IMG/VR virus record: IMGVR_UViG_3300025070_000149
Coordinates: 1-30,683 of that record
Length of the DNA: 30,683 bases
Direction: 5' to 3' (one strand)
From: a virus
Part shown: piece after piece, positions 5,269 to 18,241 of the stretch
Position numbering within the stretch: the stretch's first letter is position 1
Layout: each line of letters opens with the position of its first letter
The notes under the pieces: model-generated
The model's input: the letters and a program-made list of their open reading frames with translations, nothing else
What the model was told of the DNA's origin: nothing
The model's database searches: none
Program-made: the position numbers and the translations under genes

Positions 5269-5470
5269 GTTTTATGAAGCTGTTGAAAAGCAAAAAGAAA
5301 TATTAAAAAAAGAAGCTGAAGATAACCAAGTAAAATATATTGACATAAGAATCAATGATGGTAAATGGACAGAGAGCACAACTGATTATGTTTCGGGTAG
5401 AAGAGTTACAGAGTTTAACGATAAGCGTAAGAAAAATATAGAGGAGTATTATGGCGAAGACGTGGACTAA
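5261..5470 (+). CDS. Hypothetical protein, 69 aa
   Basis: A good RBS (GGGAG) precedes the ATG. The N-terminal 30 residues look like a charged helix (Lys/Glu-rich). The remainder has strand-like and Arg-rich stretches (SGRRVTEFNDKRKKN). No membrane segment and no recognised family. It overlaps the small basic protein gene at 5451. Confidence 0.65.
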   Translation: MTEFYEAVEKQKEILKKEAEDNQVKYIDIRINDGKWTESTTDYVSGRRVTEFNDKRKKNIEEYYGEDVD

Positions 5471-5600
5471 GAGTACATATACTTCTGCTACACAAGGCAG
5501 AGGTAAAAAGACAAGTCAAGGTAGAGGTAATGTTGCTTTCTCTACTATGAACAAGAACAAGAAAAGCAACTTCAAAAAATATCGAGGGCAAGGTAAATGA
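5451..5600 (+). CDS. Small basic Gly/Lys/Ser-rich protein, 49 aa
   Basis: GAGGAG precedes ATG 5451. The product starts MAKTWTKSTYTSATQGRGKK and ends in KKYRGQGK, with two QGRG repeats. It is strongly basic with almost no hydrophobic residues, so it is probably disordered and binds nucleic acid or ribosomes. I recall very similar short proteins as common in marine cyanophages and pelagiphages, where their role is unknown. The stop overlaps the next ATG (ATGA). Confidence 0.75.
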   Translation: MAKTWTKSTYTSATQGRGKKTSQGRGNVAFSTMNKNKKSNFKKYRGQGK

Positions 5601-5788
5601 ACGAGAAAAAAATAACAATTAAAATTCCAGCAAGACATTTGGAATGGATTAAAAAGAACTATCGTAAATCTAGAAGTGGTGTGACTAGTTTGTTTGAGTA
5701 TGGGGGTATAGATATCCAAGAGGTACATGCCATAGCAGACTTACTGTATCATCTTAATGAAGCATTTGAAATTGAGGGTGGTAAGTGA
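5597..5788 (+). CDS. Hypothetical protein, 63 aa
   Basis: Translation is coupled to the preceding gene by an ATGA overlap. It has a strand-like start (KKITIKIPARHLEWIKKNY), a basic middle and an acidic helical end (HAIADLLYHLNEAFEIE). It may be a small DNA-binding fold, but no motif supports this strongly. The TGA stop overlaps the GTG start of the next gene. Confidence 0.6.
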   Translation: MNEKKITIKIPARHLEWIKKNYRKSRSGVTSLFEYGGIDIQEVHAIADLLYHLNEAFEIEGGK

Positions 5789-6282
5789 ACATATTTTATT
5801 TTGATGAATGTCCAACCATATCAGCAGAAGCACAGCCTGATAAGATGCTAGTCAAGATGCCATTGGAAACAGCACAGATGTTGTGTACAGCACACAGAGT
5901 TTTAGATGGTGATGAGTATGCAGATGCTAATGGTTTGTACAAAGAAGCATATAAGAATCACCCATGTACTATATGGGCTAGAGAATCTAGCTCTAACTAC
6001 TCATGGTTGTATCGACACTTCCTAGCACTAGGCTTGGAGTATGAGTATAGGTATGGTAGGAAACATGCAAGTGTTGTCAAGCTAGAAGAACCATTGAGTA
6101 AGATGCCCGACAACATTACACATACAAGCATGACACCATTAGCACAGGCTATGCCTGAGGAGTACAAAGATGAAGACCCTATTGTTGCTTATCGTGATTA
6201 CTGCATTAACGAAAAACACTATGCCAAATGGGAACGCAATAGAACTAAGCCTACTTGGTGGACAGCACAGGAGGTTGCATAA
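5785..6282 (+). CDS. Pyrimidine-dimer DNA glycosylase-like protein
   Basis: The start is GTG 5785, overlapping the previous stop and behind GAGGGTGG. The sequence fits the phage and bacterial family annotated as pyrimidine dimer excision proteins (T4 endonuclease V relatives, Pyr_excise): an FDEC start, DKMLVKMPLETAQMLCTAHRV (about residues 20-39), HPCTIWARES-N-W (about 59-73), YRYGRKH, and a C-terminal AMPEEYK...AYRDYCI then PTWW. These proteins are expected to cut DNA beside UV lesions or act as related glycosylases. For a surface-ocean phage, UV repair would make sense. Substrate and activity are inferred from the family; the distant relation to T4 enzyme V makes this moderate. It ends the first early block. 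Confidence 0.6.
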   Translation: MNIFYFDECPTISAEAQPDKMLVKMPLETAQMLCTAHRVLDGDEYADANGLYKEAYKNHPCTIWARESSSNYSWLYRHFLALGLEYEYRYGRKHASVVKLEEPLSKMPDNITHTSMTPLAQAMPEEYKDEDPIVAYRDYCINEKHYAKWERNRTKPTWWTAQEVA

Positions 6283-6291
6283 AGTTACTAT

Positions 6292-6330
6292 TAAATCTTG
6301 ACATAAGTAGTTTTTTTATGTTAAGATTTA
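6292..6330 (+). promoter_or_regulatory. Sigma70 promoter inside a 15-bp inverted repeat
   Basis: TTGACA (6298-6303), 18-bp spacer, TAAGAT (6322-6327, 4 of 6). Both boxes lie in the arms of a 15-bp inverted repeat, 6292-6306 and 6316-6330, perfect but for one G-T pair, with a 9-nt loop. It may be a promoter under operator control, or a hairpin ending the upstream operon. Confidence 0.6.
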
Positions 6331-6360
6331 TTTATTATTAATTAAATAAACAGGAGACAA

Positions 6361-7086
6361 ATGAAAAAAAATATTATATTTAAAATTTTATTATTTATTT
6401 TATTTATTGGAGCAACCACCACATCTTGGACTGTTGGCTCAAAAATAAGTGATAACTCAGAAGACGTAAAAGGTATGCGTAAAGCTTTAAAAACTTTACA
6501 AATTCAACTAGATGCTAAGACGGATATTTATGATAATGTTTTAGCTAGACAAAATGTTATTTTAAATTCTATAAATAATTTAGAAGATAGAATAAATAGT
6601 TTAGAGTATGAAACTTCACAAGACATTCTTAATGTTTTATCTTTGCTTGATGAATTAAGACAAGAGGTTGAAAATTTTGAAAATACTTTTGAAACTTCTG
6701 AAGAAATAGTCAATACGACAGGAGCCACAGGAGGTTTCGGAGTGTTGACTGGTACCCAAGCATTGGGACAGAGCAAAGAGGTTTATACAGAGACTCTCAG
6801 TGAGCCTCAGACCCCTTCTAAAATTGTTAAAGAATCTTTATCAAAGGCTTCATGTCCTAGACCTAAATCAAATAGAAAATTTGTAACTTATATTAAAAAT
6901 ATTACAATAAAAAATACTGAAAAATTTAATGCTAAGTTTGATCTCGAAGTAGGAACACCTATCAATATTAATATTATAGGTACTAATAATTCAAGATTAA
7001 AAAGAGCTGTTAAACGATACGTTTTAGATTTAAATTTTGAAAGTGTTACAACAACAAATTGTTCAATACCATTTACAATTAATTAA
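6361..7086 (+). CDS. Membrane-anchored coiled-coil protein with a TonB-like C-terminus
   Basis: AGGAGA precedes the ATG. Residues about 5-25 form a single membrane helix after a KKN start, giving an inner-membrane protein whose bulk faces the periplasm. Residues about 30-115 are heptad-rich and predicted coiled coil. A Gly/Thr-rich linker follows, with two Cys at about 164 and 236. The last 80 residues (strand-helix-strand with NNSRLKRAVKRYVLDLNFES near the end) resemble the shape of a TonB C-terminal domain, a match by pattern only. Candidates are a spanin-like lysis factor, a superinfection-exclusion protein, or a factor touching the host TonB system. It has its own promoter and lies apart from the late lysis genes. 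Confidence 0.6.
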   Translation: MKKNIIFKILLFILFIGATTTSWTVGSKISDNSEDVKGMRKALKTLQIQLDAKTDIYDNVLARQNVILNSINNLEDRINSLEYETSQDILNVLSLLDELRQEVENFENTFETSEEIVNTTGATGGFGVLTGTQALGQSKEVYTETLSEPQTPSKIVKESLSKASCPRPKSNRKFVTYIKNITIKNTEKFNAKFDLEVGTPININIIGTNNSRLKRAVKRYVLDLNFESVTTTNCSIPFTIN

Positions 7087-7097
7087 TAAGGAGCTTT

Positions 7098-7319
7098 ATG
7101 AATTATTTATATCAGAGAATGTTAGAAGAAGAAACCACAGCTATTTTTGACAAGAAACAATTAAGAAAGTTTGATGAATATATTACAAAAAATTATAAAG
7201 AATTTTATGAGAATAAAATACCTTACGAGATTAAAAAAGAAGGTGAAAAATTTATTGTAACTTTATTTGATACAACACACATAACAATGAAAGACATATT
7301 GCTTGACATCCTCAAGTGA
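7098..7319 (+). CDS. Hypothetical protein, 73 aa
   Basis: AAGGAG lies upstream of the ATG. The product starts with a charged helix (LYQRMLEEETTAIFDKKQLRK) followed by an alternating strand-like end (KFIVTLFDTTHITMKDILLDIL). No membrane helix or known motif. The consensus promoter of the SSB gene overlaps its last codons. Confidence 0.65.
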   Translation: MNYLYQRMLEEETTAIFDKKQLRKFDEYITKNYKEFYENKIPYEIKKEGEKFIVTLFDTTHITMKDILLDILK

Positions 7320-7331
7320 TTAGTGTATAAT
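7303..7331 (+). promoter_or_regulatory. Full-consensus sigma70 promoter for the SSB gene
   Basis: TTGACA (7303-7308), 17-bp spacer, TATAAT (7326-7331): both boxes and the spacing are consensus. Transcription would start near 7338, about 30 bases before the SSB ATG. Confidence 0.9.
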
Positions 7332-7367
7332 TGTTTTCACAAAACGCCAAACCAAGGAGGTATTTAT

Positions 7368-7805
7368 ATGGCAATACAAGAAGGAGTAGCCTATTGGGCT
7401 AGTGTAACAACCCCAAACACTAAGTTTGAGCCTGTGTATACAGTAGATTTAGTGCTTGAGGATTCAGTGGCTGATGACTTTGAAAGACGTGGATTTAAAG
7501 TAAAAAATCTAACGATTCAAGACGAAGTTGTTGGTCGATCTATAAACTTTAAACGTAAAGTGAATGGTCCCAACGGGATGGTTCGCAAAGCACCCACGCT
7601 TGTAGATGCTAACAAAGTCCCAATGGATGAGTTAGTAGGCAATGGTTCTAGAGTTAAAGTTCAATATAATGAATGGGAAGTTTCGAATAAATATGGAAAC
7701 TTTAAAGGGCTTGATTTTCAAGCTATGCAAGTGCTTGACTTAGTACAGTATAAGTCAGGGGATGGTGCAGAGTTTGAAGCTATTGATGGTGGAGAAGAAT
7801 TTTAA
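7368..7805 (+). CDS. Single-stranded DNA-binding protein, T7 gp2.5-like
   Basis: I chose ATG 7368, directly behind AAGGAGG; an ATG 45 bp upstream lies before the likely transcript start. The 145-residue product has an OB-fold-like run of strands (AYWASVTTPNTKF, YTVDLVLED, KVQYNEWEV) and a short acidic tail ending EAIDGGEEF. An acidic tail with terminal Phe is a hallmark of T7 gp2.5, where it contacts polymerase and helicase; the neighbouring helicase also ends acidic with Phe. It should coat single-stranded DNA at the phage fork. It is smaller than T7 gp2.5 (232 aa). It has its own consensus promoter and a terminator after the next gene, so it is probably made in large amount. Confidence 0.8.
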   Translation: MAIQEGVAYWASVTTPNTKFEPVYTVDLVLEDSVADDFERRGFKVKNLTIQDEVVGRSINFKRKVNGPNGMVRKAPTLVDANKVPMDELVGNGSRVKVQYNEWEVSNKYGNFKGLDFQAMQVLDLVQYKSGDGAEFEAIDGGEEF

Positions 7806-9795: not shown

Positions 9796-11580
9796 ATGGA
9801 ATTAGTATTTGATATTGAAACGAATGGATTGCTTTGGGAATTTGAATCAAAAAATAAAGAAACAGGGGAACTGGAAAGAGTTCCGGCTGCTGATAGTATT
9901 TGGTGTATTGTTGCTATTGATGAAAATAATAAAGTATATTCATTTGATCCTACACAAATTGACGAGGGCATTGAGTTTCTAAAGTCAGCCGATATTCTAG
10001 TTGGTCACAACATCATTGGCTTTGATCTCCCCATAATTAAAAAACTAAAGCATGTTGATTTATATAAACATGCTAAAGTTCTTGATACCTTGACCCTATC
10101 AAGACTGTTACACCCGACAAGAGAAGGTGGACACAGCCTAGAAAAATGGGGATGGAAACTCAACTGCCCTAAGTCAGACTCGCCTGATTTTAAATCTTAC
10201 AGTAAAGAAATGATGGACTATTGTATTCAAGATGTAAAAGTAAATAAATTAGTTTTAGAAAAACTTAGATCAGACAGTTCAGGATTTAGTAAAGATTCTG
10301 TAGAAATTGAACATGAAACAAGTAAGATATTATCAGATCAGGAACAACAAGGATTTTTATTTGATGAAAAAAATGCTACACTTTTATTAAGTTCTTTAAA
10401 TAAAAGAAAAAAAGAAGTCGAAACAGAAGTTCATCATACTTTTAAACCTAAACTTGTGGATGTTAAACGTGTGTTTCCAAAACTTAAAAAAGATGGAACA
10501 CTGTCTAAGTCAGGTTTAACTGAAGAGGAATATTTAGAAAGGAAAGAGACTAATGATATGAACTCTTTCATGAGGCAAGAGCTACAAGAATTTAATCTTG
10601 GAAGTAGAAAACAAATAGGTGAGTACTTAATTGATTTTGGTTGGAAGCCTAAAAGATTTACCCCAACAGGACAACCTATTGTTGATGAAGGAACACTAAA
10701 AAAAATATCTCATATTAAAGAAGCTCAATTAATTGCAGAGTTTTTACTCTTACAAAAAAGAGCTGCTCAAGTTGAGTCATGGTTAGATGCTGTTAAAAAC
10801 GATGGCAGAGTTCATGGTTCTGTTATTTGTACTGGTACTATTACAGGTCGAATGGCACACAGAAGCCCAAACATGGCTCAAGTACCTGCTGTATATAGTC
10901 CTTTTGGTAAAGAGTGCAGGTCTTGTTGGACAGTACCTGATGGATATAAACTTGTAGGTGTAGATGCAAGTGGATTAGAATTAAGAATGTTAGCACACTA
11001 CATGGCTGACGAGGAGTATGTAAATGAAATTATCAATGGAGACATTCACACAACTAACCAAAAGTTTGCTGGACTTGAATCAAGAGATCAGGCAAAAACT
11101 TTCATCTATGCACTCATATACGGAGCAGGAGACGAAAAACTTGGAAGCATTGTTAATGGAAGCAGAGCAGACGGTAAGAAGTTGCGAGAACGCTTTTTTA
11201 GTAGTCTCCCAACACTTAGAACTCTTAAAGAACGAGTTGATAGAGCAGCAAAGAAAAAATTTTTAAAAGGTTTAGATGGTAGAAAGATATTTGTTAGACA
11301 TGAACACGCTGCTTTAAATACCTTATTACAAGGAGGAGGAGCAGTAGCAATGAAAAAGGGGTTGATACTACTGAATACTCGTTTGTCTCTTGCAAATCTT
11401 GATTATAAATTTGTAGGTAATATTCATGATGAATGGCAAATAGAAGTAAAAGAATGTCAAGCTAATAGAGTTGGTCAACTTGCTGTTGAAAGTATTATAG
11501 ATGCAGGAACATATTTTAACATGCGTTGTCCGTTAGATGGTGAATATAAAATAGGAGGAAACTGGAGTGACACACATTAA
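9796..11580 (+). CDS. Family A DNA polymerase, T7-like
   Basis: The protein copies the phage genome. The N-terminal 3'-5' exonuclease shows DIETNGL (D6, E8) and a YCIQDV motif near residue 145. The polymerase palm and fingers show motif A VGVDASGLELRMLAHY (D390), motif B RDQAKTFIYALIYGAG (R430, K434, Tyr438 at the place of T7 Tyr526), and motif C HDEW (D545). With 594 residues it is about 110 shorter than T7 gp5 (704), so the thioredoxin-binding loop is probably missing or shorter; processivity may then come from the helicase and SSB tails. The last 14 bases overlap the GIY-YIG gene. Confidence 0.95.
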   Translation: MELVFDIETNGLLWEFESKNKETGELERVPAADSIWCIVAIDENNKVYSFDPTQIDEGIEFLKSADILVGHNIIGFDLPIIKKLKHVDLYKHAKVLDTLTLSRLLHPTREGGHSLEKWGWKLNCPKSDSPDFKSYSKEMMDYCIQDVKVNKLVLEKLRSDSSGFSKDSVEIEHETSKILSDQEQQGFLFDEKNATLLLSSLNKRKKEVETEVHHTFKPKLVDVKRVFPKLKKDGTLSKSGLTEEEYLERKETNDMNSFMRQELQEFNLGSRKQIGEYLIDFGWKPKRFTPTGQPIVDEGTLKKISHIKEAQLIAEFLLLQKRAAQVESWLDAVKNDGRVHGSVICTGTITGRMAHRSPNMAQVPAVYSPFGKECRSCWTVPDGYKLVGVDASGLELRMLAHYMADEEYVNEIINGDIHTTNQKFAGLESRDQAKTFIYALIYGAGDEKLGSIVNGSRADGKKLRERFFSSLPTLRTLKERVDRAAKKKFLKGLDGRKIFVRHEHAALNTLLQGGGAVAMKKGLILLNTRLSLANLDYKFVGNIHDEWQIEVKECQANRVGQLAVESIIDAGTYFNMRCPLDGEYKIGGNWSDTH

Positions 11581-12118
11581 TTGTAACGAGTGTGGGGTTA
11601 AATTAACTGATGATAATTGGCAACCCTCACGTAAAGAAAGAAAAGAAAAAGTATGTATTCCATGCTATGCGACTTTAGAAAAATATACTAAAAGAAACAC
11701 AGAACGAATGTTTGTTAACGGTAAGTACATAAGTAAAACTCATCCGTTGTATAAACCCGGACATTACAAAACATTTGAAGATGCTGCGTTTCAATCTTTA
11801 TCTAGCTATTCTAGTAGTAAAGAAGGTCAAGTATATATTATTACAAACCCTGCTTGGAAAGGCTGGATTAAAGTTGGTATGGCTATAGAAGCAATTGACA
11901 GATGTAACCAATATCAAACATCTTCGCCTATGCGGGATTATAAACTTGAATATTATAAAGACTTTAAAAACAGAAGACTTGCTGAATCAAACGCACACAA
12001 GCTTTGTAGCAAACAAGCTATAGAAAGAAATGGTGAATGGTTTAAACTGTCTATTAAAAAAGCTATCAGTTTAATTGATAGTATAACTGAGGAAGAATAT
12101 GAAAAAGAAACAGCTTGA
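11567..12118 (+). CDS. GIY-YIG (T5orf172-like) nuclease-domain protein with zinc ribbon
   Basis: The start is GTG 11567, inside the end of the polymerase gene, behind TAGGAGGAA. The 183-residue product has an N-terminal zinc ribbon (C6, C9, C30, C33) and a GIY-YIG-type domain from about residue 86: VYIITNP (Y90), a WIKVGMA strand (K102-G104), R112, E140, and a closing NGEWF. This matches the T5orf172/MUG113 branch. Such domains nick or cut DNA, and act as homing endonucleases, resolvases or repair nucleases. The position inside the replication operon, with overlaps on both sides, suggests a regular replication or recombination role. A homing role cannot be excluded, but no intron is seen in the polymerase. 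Confidence 0.75.
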   Translation: MTHINCNECGVKLTDDNWQPSRKERKEKVCIPCYATLEKYTKRNTERMFVNGKYISKTHPLYKPGHYKTFEDAAFQSLSSYSSSKEGQVYIITNPAWKGWIKVGMAIEAIDRCNQYQTSSPMRDYKLEYYKDFKNRRLAESNAHKLCSKQAIERNGEWFKLSIKKAISLIDSITEEEYEKETA

Positions 12119-17528: not shown

Positions 17529-17810
17529 CTAATCTTTTCTTACGTCTTTCTTACCATCAGCCCGAGCTATTCTAGCAACGTCTGGTGGTAACTTTAATGC
17601 AGTACGAACCAATGTGTCGATACGTATCATATCATTATCCATTTGCCTTATCCTATCAATCAAGGAAACAATCATCGTGTGTTGCGTATCTAGTTTTTTG
17701 TGGATGTCTGAAATTAAACTTTTAAATAGTGTCCATACTAAGTAACCCAAGCCTATTGCAGCAGCAGCCGGAATCCCTATAGTCTCTATGGCACTTATAA
17801 ACTCTTTCAT
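17529..17810 (-). CDS. Small membrane protein with coiled coil, possible lysis protein
   Basis: The last gene of the leftward operon. Residues about 12-32 (GIPAAAAIGLGYLVWTLFKSL) form one membrane helix; about 33-65 look coiled coil (KKLDTQHTMIVSLIDRIRQM); the tail is basic. The ATGA overlap couples it to the holin-like gene upstream. One helix followed by a coil is the layout of some small holins and of inner-membrane spanins, so a lysis role is plausible but unproven. Confidence 0.65.
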   Translation of the reverse strand: MKEFISAIETIGIPAAAAIGLGYLVWTLFKSLISDIHKKLDTQHTMIVSLIDRIRQMDNDMIRIDTLVRTALKLPPDVARIARADGKKDVRKD

Positions 17811-18241
17811 TTCTTGACAAGACTGCCACCAAAATACATACCAATAATAGCTGATACTAAATTAGTATCTAGTTGAGTGATAACTAATCCATTAAATGAA
17901 ATCCATTCAAATATTTCTTTTCCATCTGTAAAAAATAAAAATCCGGGCTTCCAATTGGTATAGCCAACTGTAACTAAAACTTCAGGATAGAATAACGGTA
18001 CAAGCTTTGGAAGTAATACAATAGAAAAAATTGCTGTCAATGCTATAATTCTTCTTGTCCATTGAAATCCTTTGTTCTCATAAGTTCTAGCATCTGAGAT
18101 AGCAGCATTTTGAACTTCAGTTCTAGCAATTAACATCTTCTGTTCTTCTTGTTTAGCCTTCATACGTTGAGACCATAGACTAAGTAATCCACTTAATAAC
18201 GTTGAACCAAGCATTGTAATTATTTCAAAAGGAAAACCCAT
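17807..18241 (-). CDS. Holin-like membrane protein, 144 aa
   Basis: Three hydrophobic stretches are visible: about residues 7-24, 62-86 (RRIIALTAIFSIVLLPKLVPL) and 121-140 (LVSAIIGMYFGGSL). Between the first two lies a charged, probably coiled segment (QRMKAKQEEQKML). This layout matches holin candidates that are common in marine podoviruses at the end of the virion operon. It would open the inner membrane at lysis. The location between the ejection-protein gene and another small membrane protein supports it. Holin identity is based on topology and context, not on a proven motif. Confidence 0.6.
   Translation of the reverse strand: MGFPFEIITMLGSTLLSGLLSLWSQRMKAKQEEQKMLIARTEVQNAAISDARTYENKGFQWTRRIIALTAIFSIVLLPKLVPLFYPEVLVTVGYTNWKPGFLFFTDGKEIFEWISFNGLVITQLDTNLVSAIIGMYFGGSLVKK

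Follow-up and report, generated by a model that had tools for sequence, protein, structure and literature searches.

HTVC103P-like marine phages carry an accessory gene for a membrane-anchored protein with a predicted TonB-like C-terminal domain

Described relatives and anatomy of the phage protein

The described proteins that most resemble the phage protein analysed here are TonB (E. coli NP_415768; Pfam TonB_C, PF03544), TolA (E. coli NP_415267 and the TolA proteins of SAR11) and the Rz-like i-spanins (phrog_739, phrog_89). TonB combines an N-terminal membrane anchor with a long extended periplasmic part and a C-terminal domain, TolA has a membrane anchor, a long helical middle and a C-terminal domain of related fold, and i-spanins consist of an N-terminal helix and a periplasmic coiled coil. 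The membrane helices of E. coli TonB and TolA contain the motif SxxxH, the histidine of which couples these proteins to ExbB-ExbD or TolQ-TolR for energy. Unimolecular spanins are recognised by an N-terminal lipobox cysteine and a C-terminal membrane helix. By outcome only, namely a proposed block of an outer-membrane receptor, the phage protein may also be likened to the superinfection exclusion protein Cor of the phages phi80 and N15. A passage in the source states that Cor inactivates FhuA, a TonB-dependent receptor (PMC11436027).

The window, i.e. the whole stretch of DNA that was analysed (30,683 nucleotides), corresponds to a virus record of 30.7 kb in IMG/VR. The protein encoded at positions 6361 to 7086 shares the N-terminal membrane anchor, the long extended periplasmic part and the predicted C-terminal fold with TonB. 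The features of this region are the following:

5785..6282, plus strand: upstream neighbour, a Pyr_excise / phrog_624 protein (profile matches, gene order)
6292..6330, plus strand: 16-bp inverted repeat (hairpin) enclosing promoter-like hexamers (z -6.1)
6298..6327, plus strand: promoter-like TTGACA-18-TAAGAT (10/12 consensus match)
6352..6357, plus strand: AGGAGA, likely ribosome-binding site (read from the sequence)
6361..7086, plus strand: coding sequence of the TonB-like protein, 241 aa, ATG at 6361, TAA ending at 7086 (ORF call, homologues)
6367..6429, plus strand: N-terminal membrane helix, residues 3-23, without His and without SxxxH (hydropathy, AlphaFold2, family sequences)
6460..6693, plus strand: predicted coiled coil, residues 34-111 (78 residues; AlphaFold2 helix, heptad pattern)
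6694..6843, plus strand: predicted disordered linker, residues 112-161 (AlphaFold2 model); Pro/Glu-rich in several relatives, as in TonB
6739..6753, plus strand: GVLTG motif in the linker, residues 127-131 (sequence comparison)
6844..7083, plus strand: predicted TonB-like C-terminal domain, residues 162-241 (AlphaFold2, structural searches, profile comparison)
6853..6855, plus strand: Cys165, first of a conserved pair (family alignment)
7060..7062, plus strand: Cys234, second of the pair, in the last strand (family alignment, AlphaFold2)
7098..7319, plus strand: downstream neighbour, 73 aa, kept with or without the TonB-like gene (gene order)
7323..7805, plus strand: SSB (Gp2.5-like, phrog_112), ATG probably at 7369 (profile match, gene order)

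An initial annotation of this DNA had described a protein with one N-terminal membrane helix and a long coiled coil, and both elements were recovered. The hydrophobic N-terminal helix is preceded by a basic start; the top 19-residue hydropathy window (1.89) lies at residue 5, and the AlphaFold2 model contains a helix at residues 3-18. Within the modelled helix 34-111, 73% of the heptad a/d positions are hydrophobic versus 27% elsewhere, a pattern that was reached by 5 of 2000 shuffles. Judged by its length, the arm is probably long enough to cross the periplasm. Cys165 and Cys234 are the sole cysteines, and in the model the chain ends in a folded alpha/beta domain; the features of unimolecular spanins are thus absent. 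In contrast to TonB, the phage protein has a coiled coil and a conserved cysteine pair, possesses neither the histidine of the membrane helix nor the YP of TonB domains, which is absent from the phage domain in the alignments, and is not recognised by TonB_C. It differs from TolA in the missing histidine anchor motif and in the lack of profile similarity (see below); the TolA domains of SAR11 also contain two cysteines, but at other places than the phage family.

Fold of the C-terminal domain and its relation to TonB

An AlphaFold2 model of the window protein was built on the family alignment. It shows domain 162-241 as a helix-strand-strand-helix-strand arrangement with a pLDDT of about 90-95. 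In a Foldseek search of the PDB, the best 13 matches of this model were all TonB-type C-terminal domains (TonB, FusB), with a best E-value of 2.6e-3 and a probability of 1.00. Among the structural matches listed by the VIA aligner, E. coli TonB reached a Z of 8.6 (rmsd 2.1 Å, 76 residues), TolA came next (best rows Z 5.9-5.5) and the first unrelated chain had a Z of 3.8. A second model, of a family domain that is 29% identical to that of the window (L046), had a mean pLDDT of 90.4; 13 TonB-type chains again stood on top in Foldseek (six best rows with E-values of 0.17-0.25 and probabilities of 0.60-0.96), and VIA gave a Z of 7.3, where values of 7 to 8 can reflect a common arrangement. The Foldseek E-values are moderate, as none is 1e-3 or lower, and they are weaker for the second model. 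We give weight to the fold because the top of the list is uniform, a gap lies beneath it and two family members agree. On the basis of these models, the C-terminal domain very probably adopts a TonB-like fold.

A comparison of profiles pointed in the same direction. The profile of 13 phage domains matched that of five TonB domains with a P of 2.1e-5 and a score of 30.8 over 51 columns, which begin in the first core strand and end in the last strand, and the best score in 400 column shuffles was 17.2. Against E. coli TonB alone, the phage profile gave a P of 0.0016, whereas P was 0.27 for E. coli TolA and 0.55 for ten SAR11 TolA domains. As the match to the TonB profile contrasts with both TolA comparisons, we take the phage domain to be distantly related to TonB rather than to TolA, bearing in mind that the phage and TonB profiles are both small. 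The TonB-like shape proposed in the initial annotation is therefore upheld by two structure predictions, the structural searches with their TonB-type top matches and the profile comparison. The sole notable match of the full window protein to a lysis family was a weak one to the unspecific profile phrog_739 (E 0.032).

Conventional family models do not detect this relationship. In searches with 17 full-length and 13 domain sequences, neither Pfam TonB_C (PF03544) nor the NCBIfam TonB models appeared among the families listed (in one case the 25 most frequent of 51), and Pfam, PHROGs and NCBIfam returned only weak coiled-coil or chance matches for the family. One of these, a match to Bacillus_HBL with 18.3 bits at a cut-off of 29.1, was taken as coiled-coil noise. 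A structural search of BFVD and a profile search against PDB sequences gave no credible match, and no description of a phage-encoded TonB-like domain was found in the open-licence literature searched. The family may thus serve as an example of a TonB-type domain that is missed by Pfam and NCBIfam, yet can be detected via gene order and structure prediction.

Distribution, conservation and genomic context

Direct scans of IMG/VR yielded three loci and a further scan using one clade yielded 33, several of them already known. The other loci came from reading gene order, for which 80 loci were fetched from IMG/VR by their primase and the genes upstream were read. A first iterative HMM search had drifted into coiled coils and ORFs inside the polymerase gene and was discarded. 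The family was defined by a domain-only profile over 119 sequences (loci and window, duplicated loci dropped) and comprises 44 homologous ORFs in IMG/VR, 37 of them distinct. No match was obtained by tblastn of the window protein, one short form (L032) and a further member (L012) in 50,697 phage records, no relative appeared in a genome collection scanned solely by the clade-B alignment (A5), and a search for the phage domain in the host phylum, which covered 299 genomes and was run without a positive control, gave no match.

In the loci read by gene order, the family gene lies just upstream of the 73-aa gene, the SSB gene and the primase gene, with the exception of one locus with one extra gene in between and two loci without the 73-aa gene. 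The phages with this slot are HTVC103P-like marine phages. The region upstream of the SSB gene extends over 900 bases or more in 53 loci; of these, 16 have the long form, six a short form and 31 neither (near-identical loci kept). The TonB-like gene is accessory and prefers one place in the genome. In HTVC115P this place, directly upstream of the SSB gene, is taken by genes for a glucosaminidase, a hypothetical protein and a phage lysozyme (L005:6140-7515).

All 37 distinct family sequences contain exactly two cysteines at matching places. In an alignment of 17 members, Asp194, Tyr220 and Cys234 are invariant, and Cys165 and Asn202 nearly so. For seven pairs, dN/dS ranged from 0.14 to 0.55 over the whole gene and from 0.08 to 0.38 over the C-terminal domain, values which indicate that the family is under purifying selection. 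Two copies appear broken (L116:1455-1974 and L117:2444-2974); one is split over two reading frames and one is truncated before the domain. Furthermore, both ends of a 52.6-kb record (G002) carry a copy (L106, L115), one of them full, the other partial and not identical to it; the record may be a circular genome whose assembly combined two strains.

The short relatives (L013, L024, L025, L026, L031 and L032), which occur in the same slot, have 78-113 aa and consist of the membrane helix and the coiled coil only. Five of the six end soon after a GVLTG motif, which five distinct long forms, that of the window among them, also have in their linker. The GVLTG amino acids are constant while the codons vary among relatives, and the motif is therefore selected as protein. 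For the same reason we rejected an internal translation start at this position, where GGAGG precedes a GTG in the window. Viewed by eye, the GVLTG and EVVTA-like linker stretches gave rise to the idea of a pseudo TonB box.

The closest matches of the window DNA polymerase are those of the Pelagibacter phages HTVC115P (51%), HTVC103P and HTVC104P (50%). These three phages also match first for a 759-aa minus-strand protein, with HMO-2011-type phages lower down. By the polymerase match, the host of the nearest cultured phages is SAR11, which is one candidate host of the window phage. A passage in PMC8528129 describes metagenomic relatives of the HTVC103P type ('group IV') as having a G+C content of 31.9-44.4% and hosts that are not known. 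The G+C content of the window is 34.3%, and that of the TonB-like gene is 27.8% versus about 35% in its flanks. Three further elements of the window were recorded, all on the plus strand: a 49-aa very basic protein at 5451-5597 (RGKKTSQGRGNV ... KKYRGQGK) that is conserved in 19 loci of the phage group, a perfect sigma-70 consensus (TTGACA-17-TATAAT) at 7303-7331 immediately 5' of the SSB gene, and a T5orf172 / MUG113-domain ORF at 11567-12118 between the DNA polymerase and a Cas4-type exonuclease.

The initial annotation had also placed the gene under its own regulated promoter and far from the late lysis genes; the first statement is plausible, and the second holds in part. A promoter-like site with 10 of 12 consensus positions does lie inside the hairpin upstream of the gene, and this 16-bp hairpin is retained with a changed loop in a relative (L003, z -3.7). 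However, promoter-like sites in the region occur at chance level (10 observed versus 10.6 in shuffles), and in several relatives the TonB-like gene begins inside or straight after the preceding gene without a gap. The hairpin-bearing gap is consequently not a family trait, and with the site count at chance a promoter of its own is only plausible. The hairpin at 6292-6330 may act as an operator, a terminator or both. With regard to lysis genes, the replication genes of the window are on the plus strand, while the minus strand carries the long structural-region ORFs and, at 17529-18241, two small membrane ORFs of holin-like type, as the statement implies. The two lysozyme-type genes in the equivalent slot of HTVC115P speak against it.

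Possible action at the host envelope

Since the membrane helix lacks the coupling histidine, which is not found within the first 45 residues of any of the 32 family sequences with an intact N-terminus, the phage protein is probably not energised. It probably represents a passive, non-energised periplasmic tether. The N-terminal helix would anchor it in the inner membrane with the C-terminus in the periplasm, and the coiled coil together with the flexible linker would bring the TonB-type domain, in which a disulfide between Cys165 and Cys234 probably acts as a lock, towards the outer membrane. There, the edge strand of the domain could pair, as this type of domain does in TonB, with a periplasmic strand peptide (the TonB box or an equivalent) of an outer-membrane partner. 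Occupation of this partner would then stop energised traffic through it, including phage entry. Such a TonB-type decoy, leading to superinfection exclusion or receptor occlusion, is the reading that we tentatively prefer, although we stop short of calling it probable. The initial annotation had likewise suggested that the protein may prevent superinfection or interfere with TonB uptake of the host. The decoy reading fits the anatomy of the protein, the accessory distribution of the gene and its location among the plus-strand replication genes, where in the window it follows a promoter-like palindrome. The broader hypothesis that HTVC103P-like marine podophages encode a non-energised TonB mimic which closes the gate of a transporter or Tol partner to rival phages is more doubtful and may be regarded as speculative. 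Phages are able to silence the TonB-dependent receptors that they use, and a TonB-like domain of their own would, if true, offer a new means to this end. As a test object the family is concrete: its domain is small, has a conserved cysteine pair and a predicted edge strand, and comes from marine phages about whose interactions with hosts little is known.

On the host side, TonB_C was found above the cut-off in none of 35 SAR11 genomes, of which 30 contained TolB and one the Plug domain. Among 197 genomes of the Pelagibacterales, the order to which the hosts of the nearest cultured phages belong, 179 contained TolB and 60 the Plug domain of TonB-dependent receptors, and none matched Pfam TonB_C. 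In view of these 60 genomes we do not claim that SAR11 lacks TonB-dependent receptors; for P. ubique, a passage in PMC3400609 reports no TonB-dependent transporter. In seven stretches read around Pelagibacterales receptors (L265-L271), each receptor has behind it a membrane ORF of about 160-180 aa, and no ORF in these stretches matched a TonB profile at an E-value of 1 or better. If it belongs to the Pelagibacterales, the host may have one such receptor and a Tol system with no TonB that Pfam recognises. These counts weaken a simple competition with host TonB and leave a direct occlusion of the receptor possible.

The main rival of the decoy reading is a role in lysis, in which the protein would link inner and outer membrane like a spanin and the TonB-like domain would take over the part of an o-spanin by binding a partner in the outer membrane or cell wall. 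One N-terminal helix followed by a periplasmic coiled coil is the anatomy of an i-spanin, and the short forms match phrog_739 ('Rz-like spanin') with E-values of 3.5e-5 and 1.1e-4. However, the same profile matches every one of 14 control genomes, among them archaea, so that the match is at least partly coiled-coil noise, and the long forms differ from i-spanins by their TonB-like domain. A cell wall hydrolase of CRP-1 is located in the same early block, and the glucosaminidase and lysozyme of HTVC115P in the equivalent slot would be in line with lysis; the opposite strand of the holin-like ORFs and the absence of the family from 31 of the 53 informative loci are not. Moreover, no plausible o-spanin lipoprotein was seen in the window, where a crude lipobox scan of ORFs of at least 40 aa returned only two minus-strand ORFs that overlap plus-strand genes. 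Taken together, we regard a lysis tether as unlikely.

Alternatively, the domain could mimic TolA and compete for its partners TolB and Pal, which would loosen the outer membrane or block Tol-dependent entry. TolA domains do follow TonB in the structural matches, the succession of membrane helix, long helix and domain resembles TolA, and TolB is widespread in the Pelagibacterales genomes, but the profile comparisons, which separate the phage domain from both E. coli and SAR11 TolA and not from TonB, make this improbable. An adaptor in the envelope that blocks nothing, either a tether with a structural role or a protein that assists uptake or secretion in the course of infection, is equally improbable in our view. 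It would be in line with the outer-membrane pore CsgG, which is encoded in four family-bearing records (G001, G003, G007 and G053, the latter with a truncated copy). However, the window and most of the family-bearing records searched lack CsgG, CsgG is present in one record where the family was not found (G011), and the protein has no histidine for energy coupling.

CsgG occurred in five of the 19 phage records searched. In one of them (G001, L119:13756-18529), the genes for CsgF, CsgG, a FecR-domain protein and a CHASE2-cyclase protein are consecutive.
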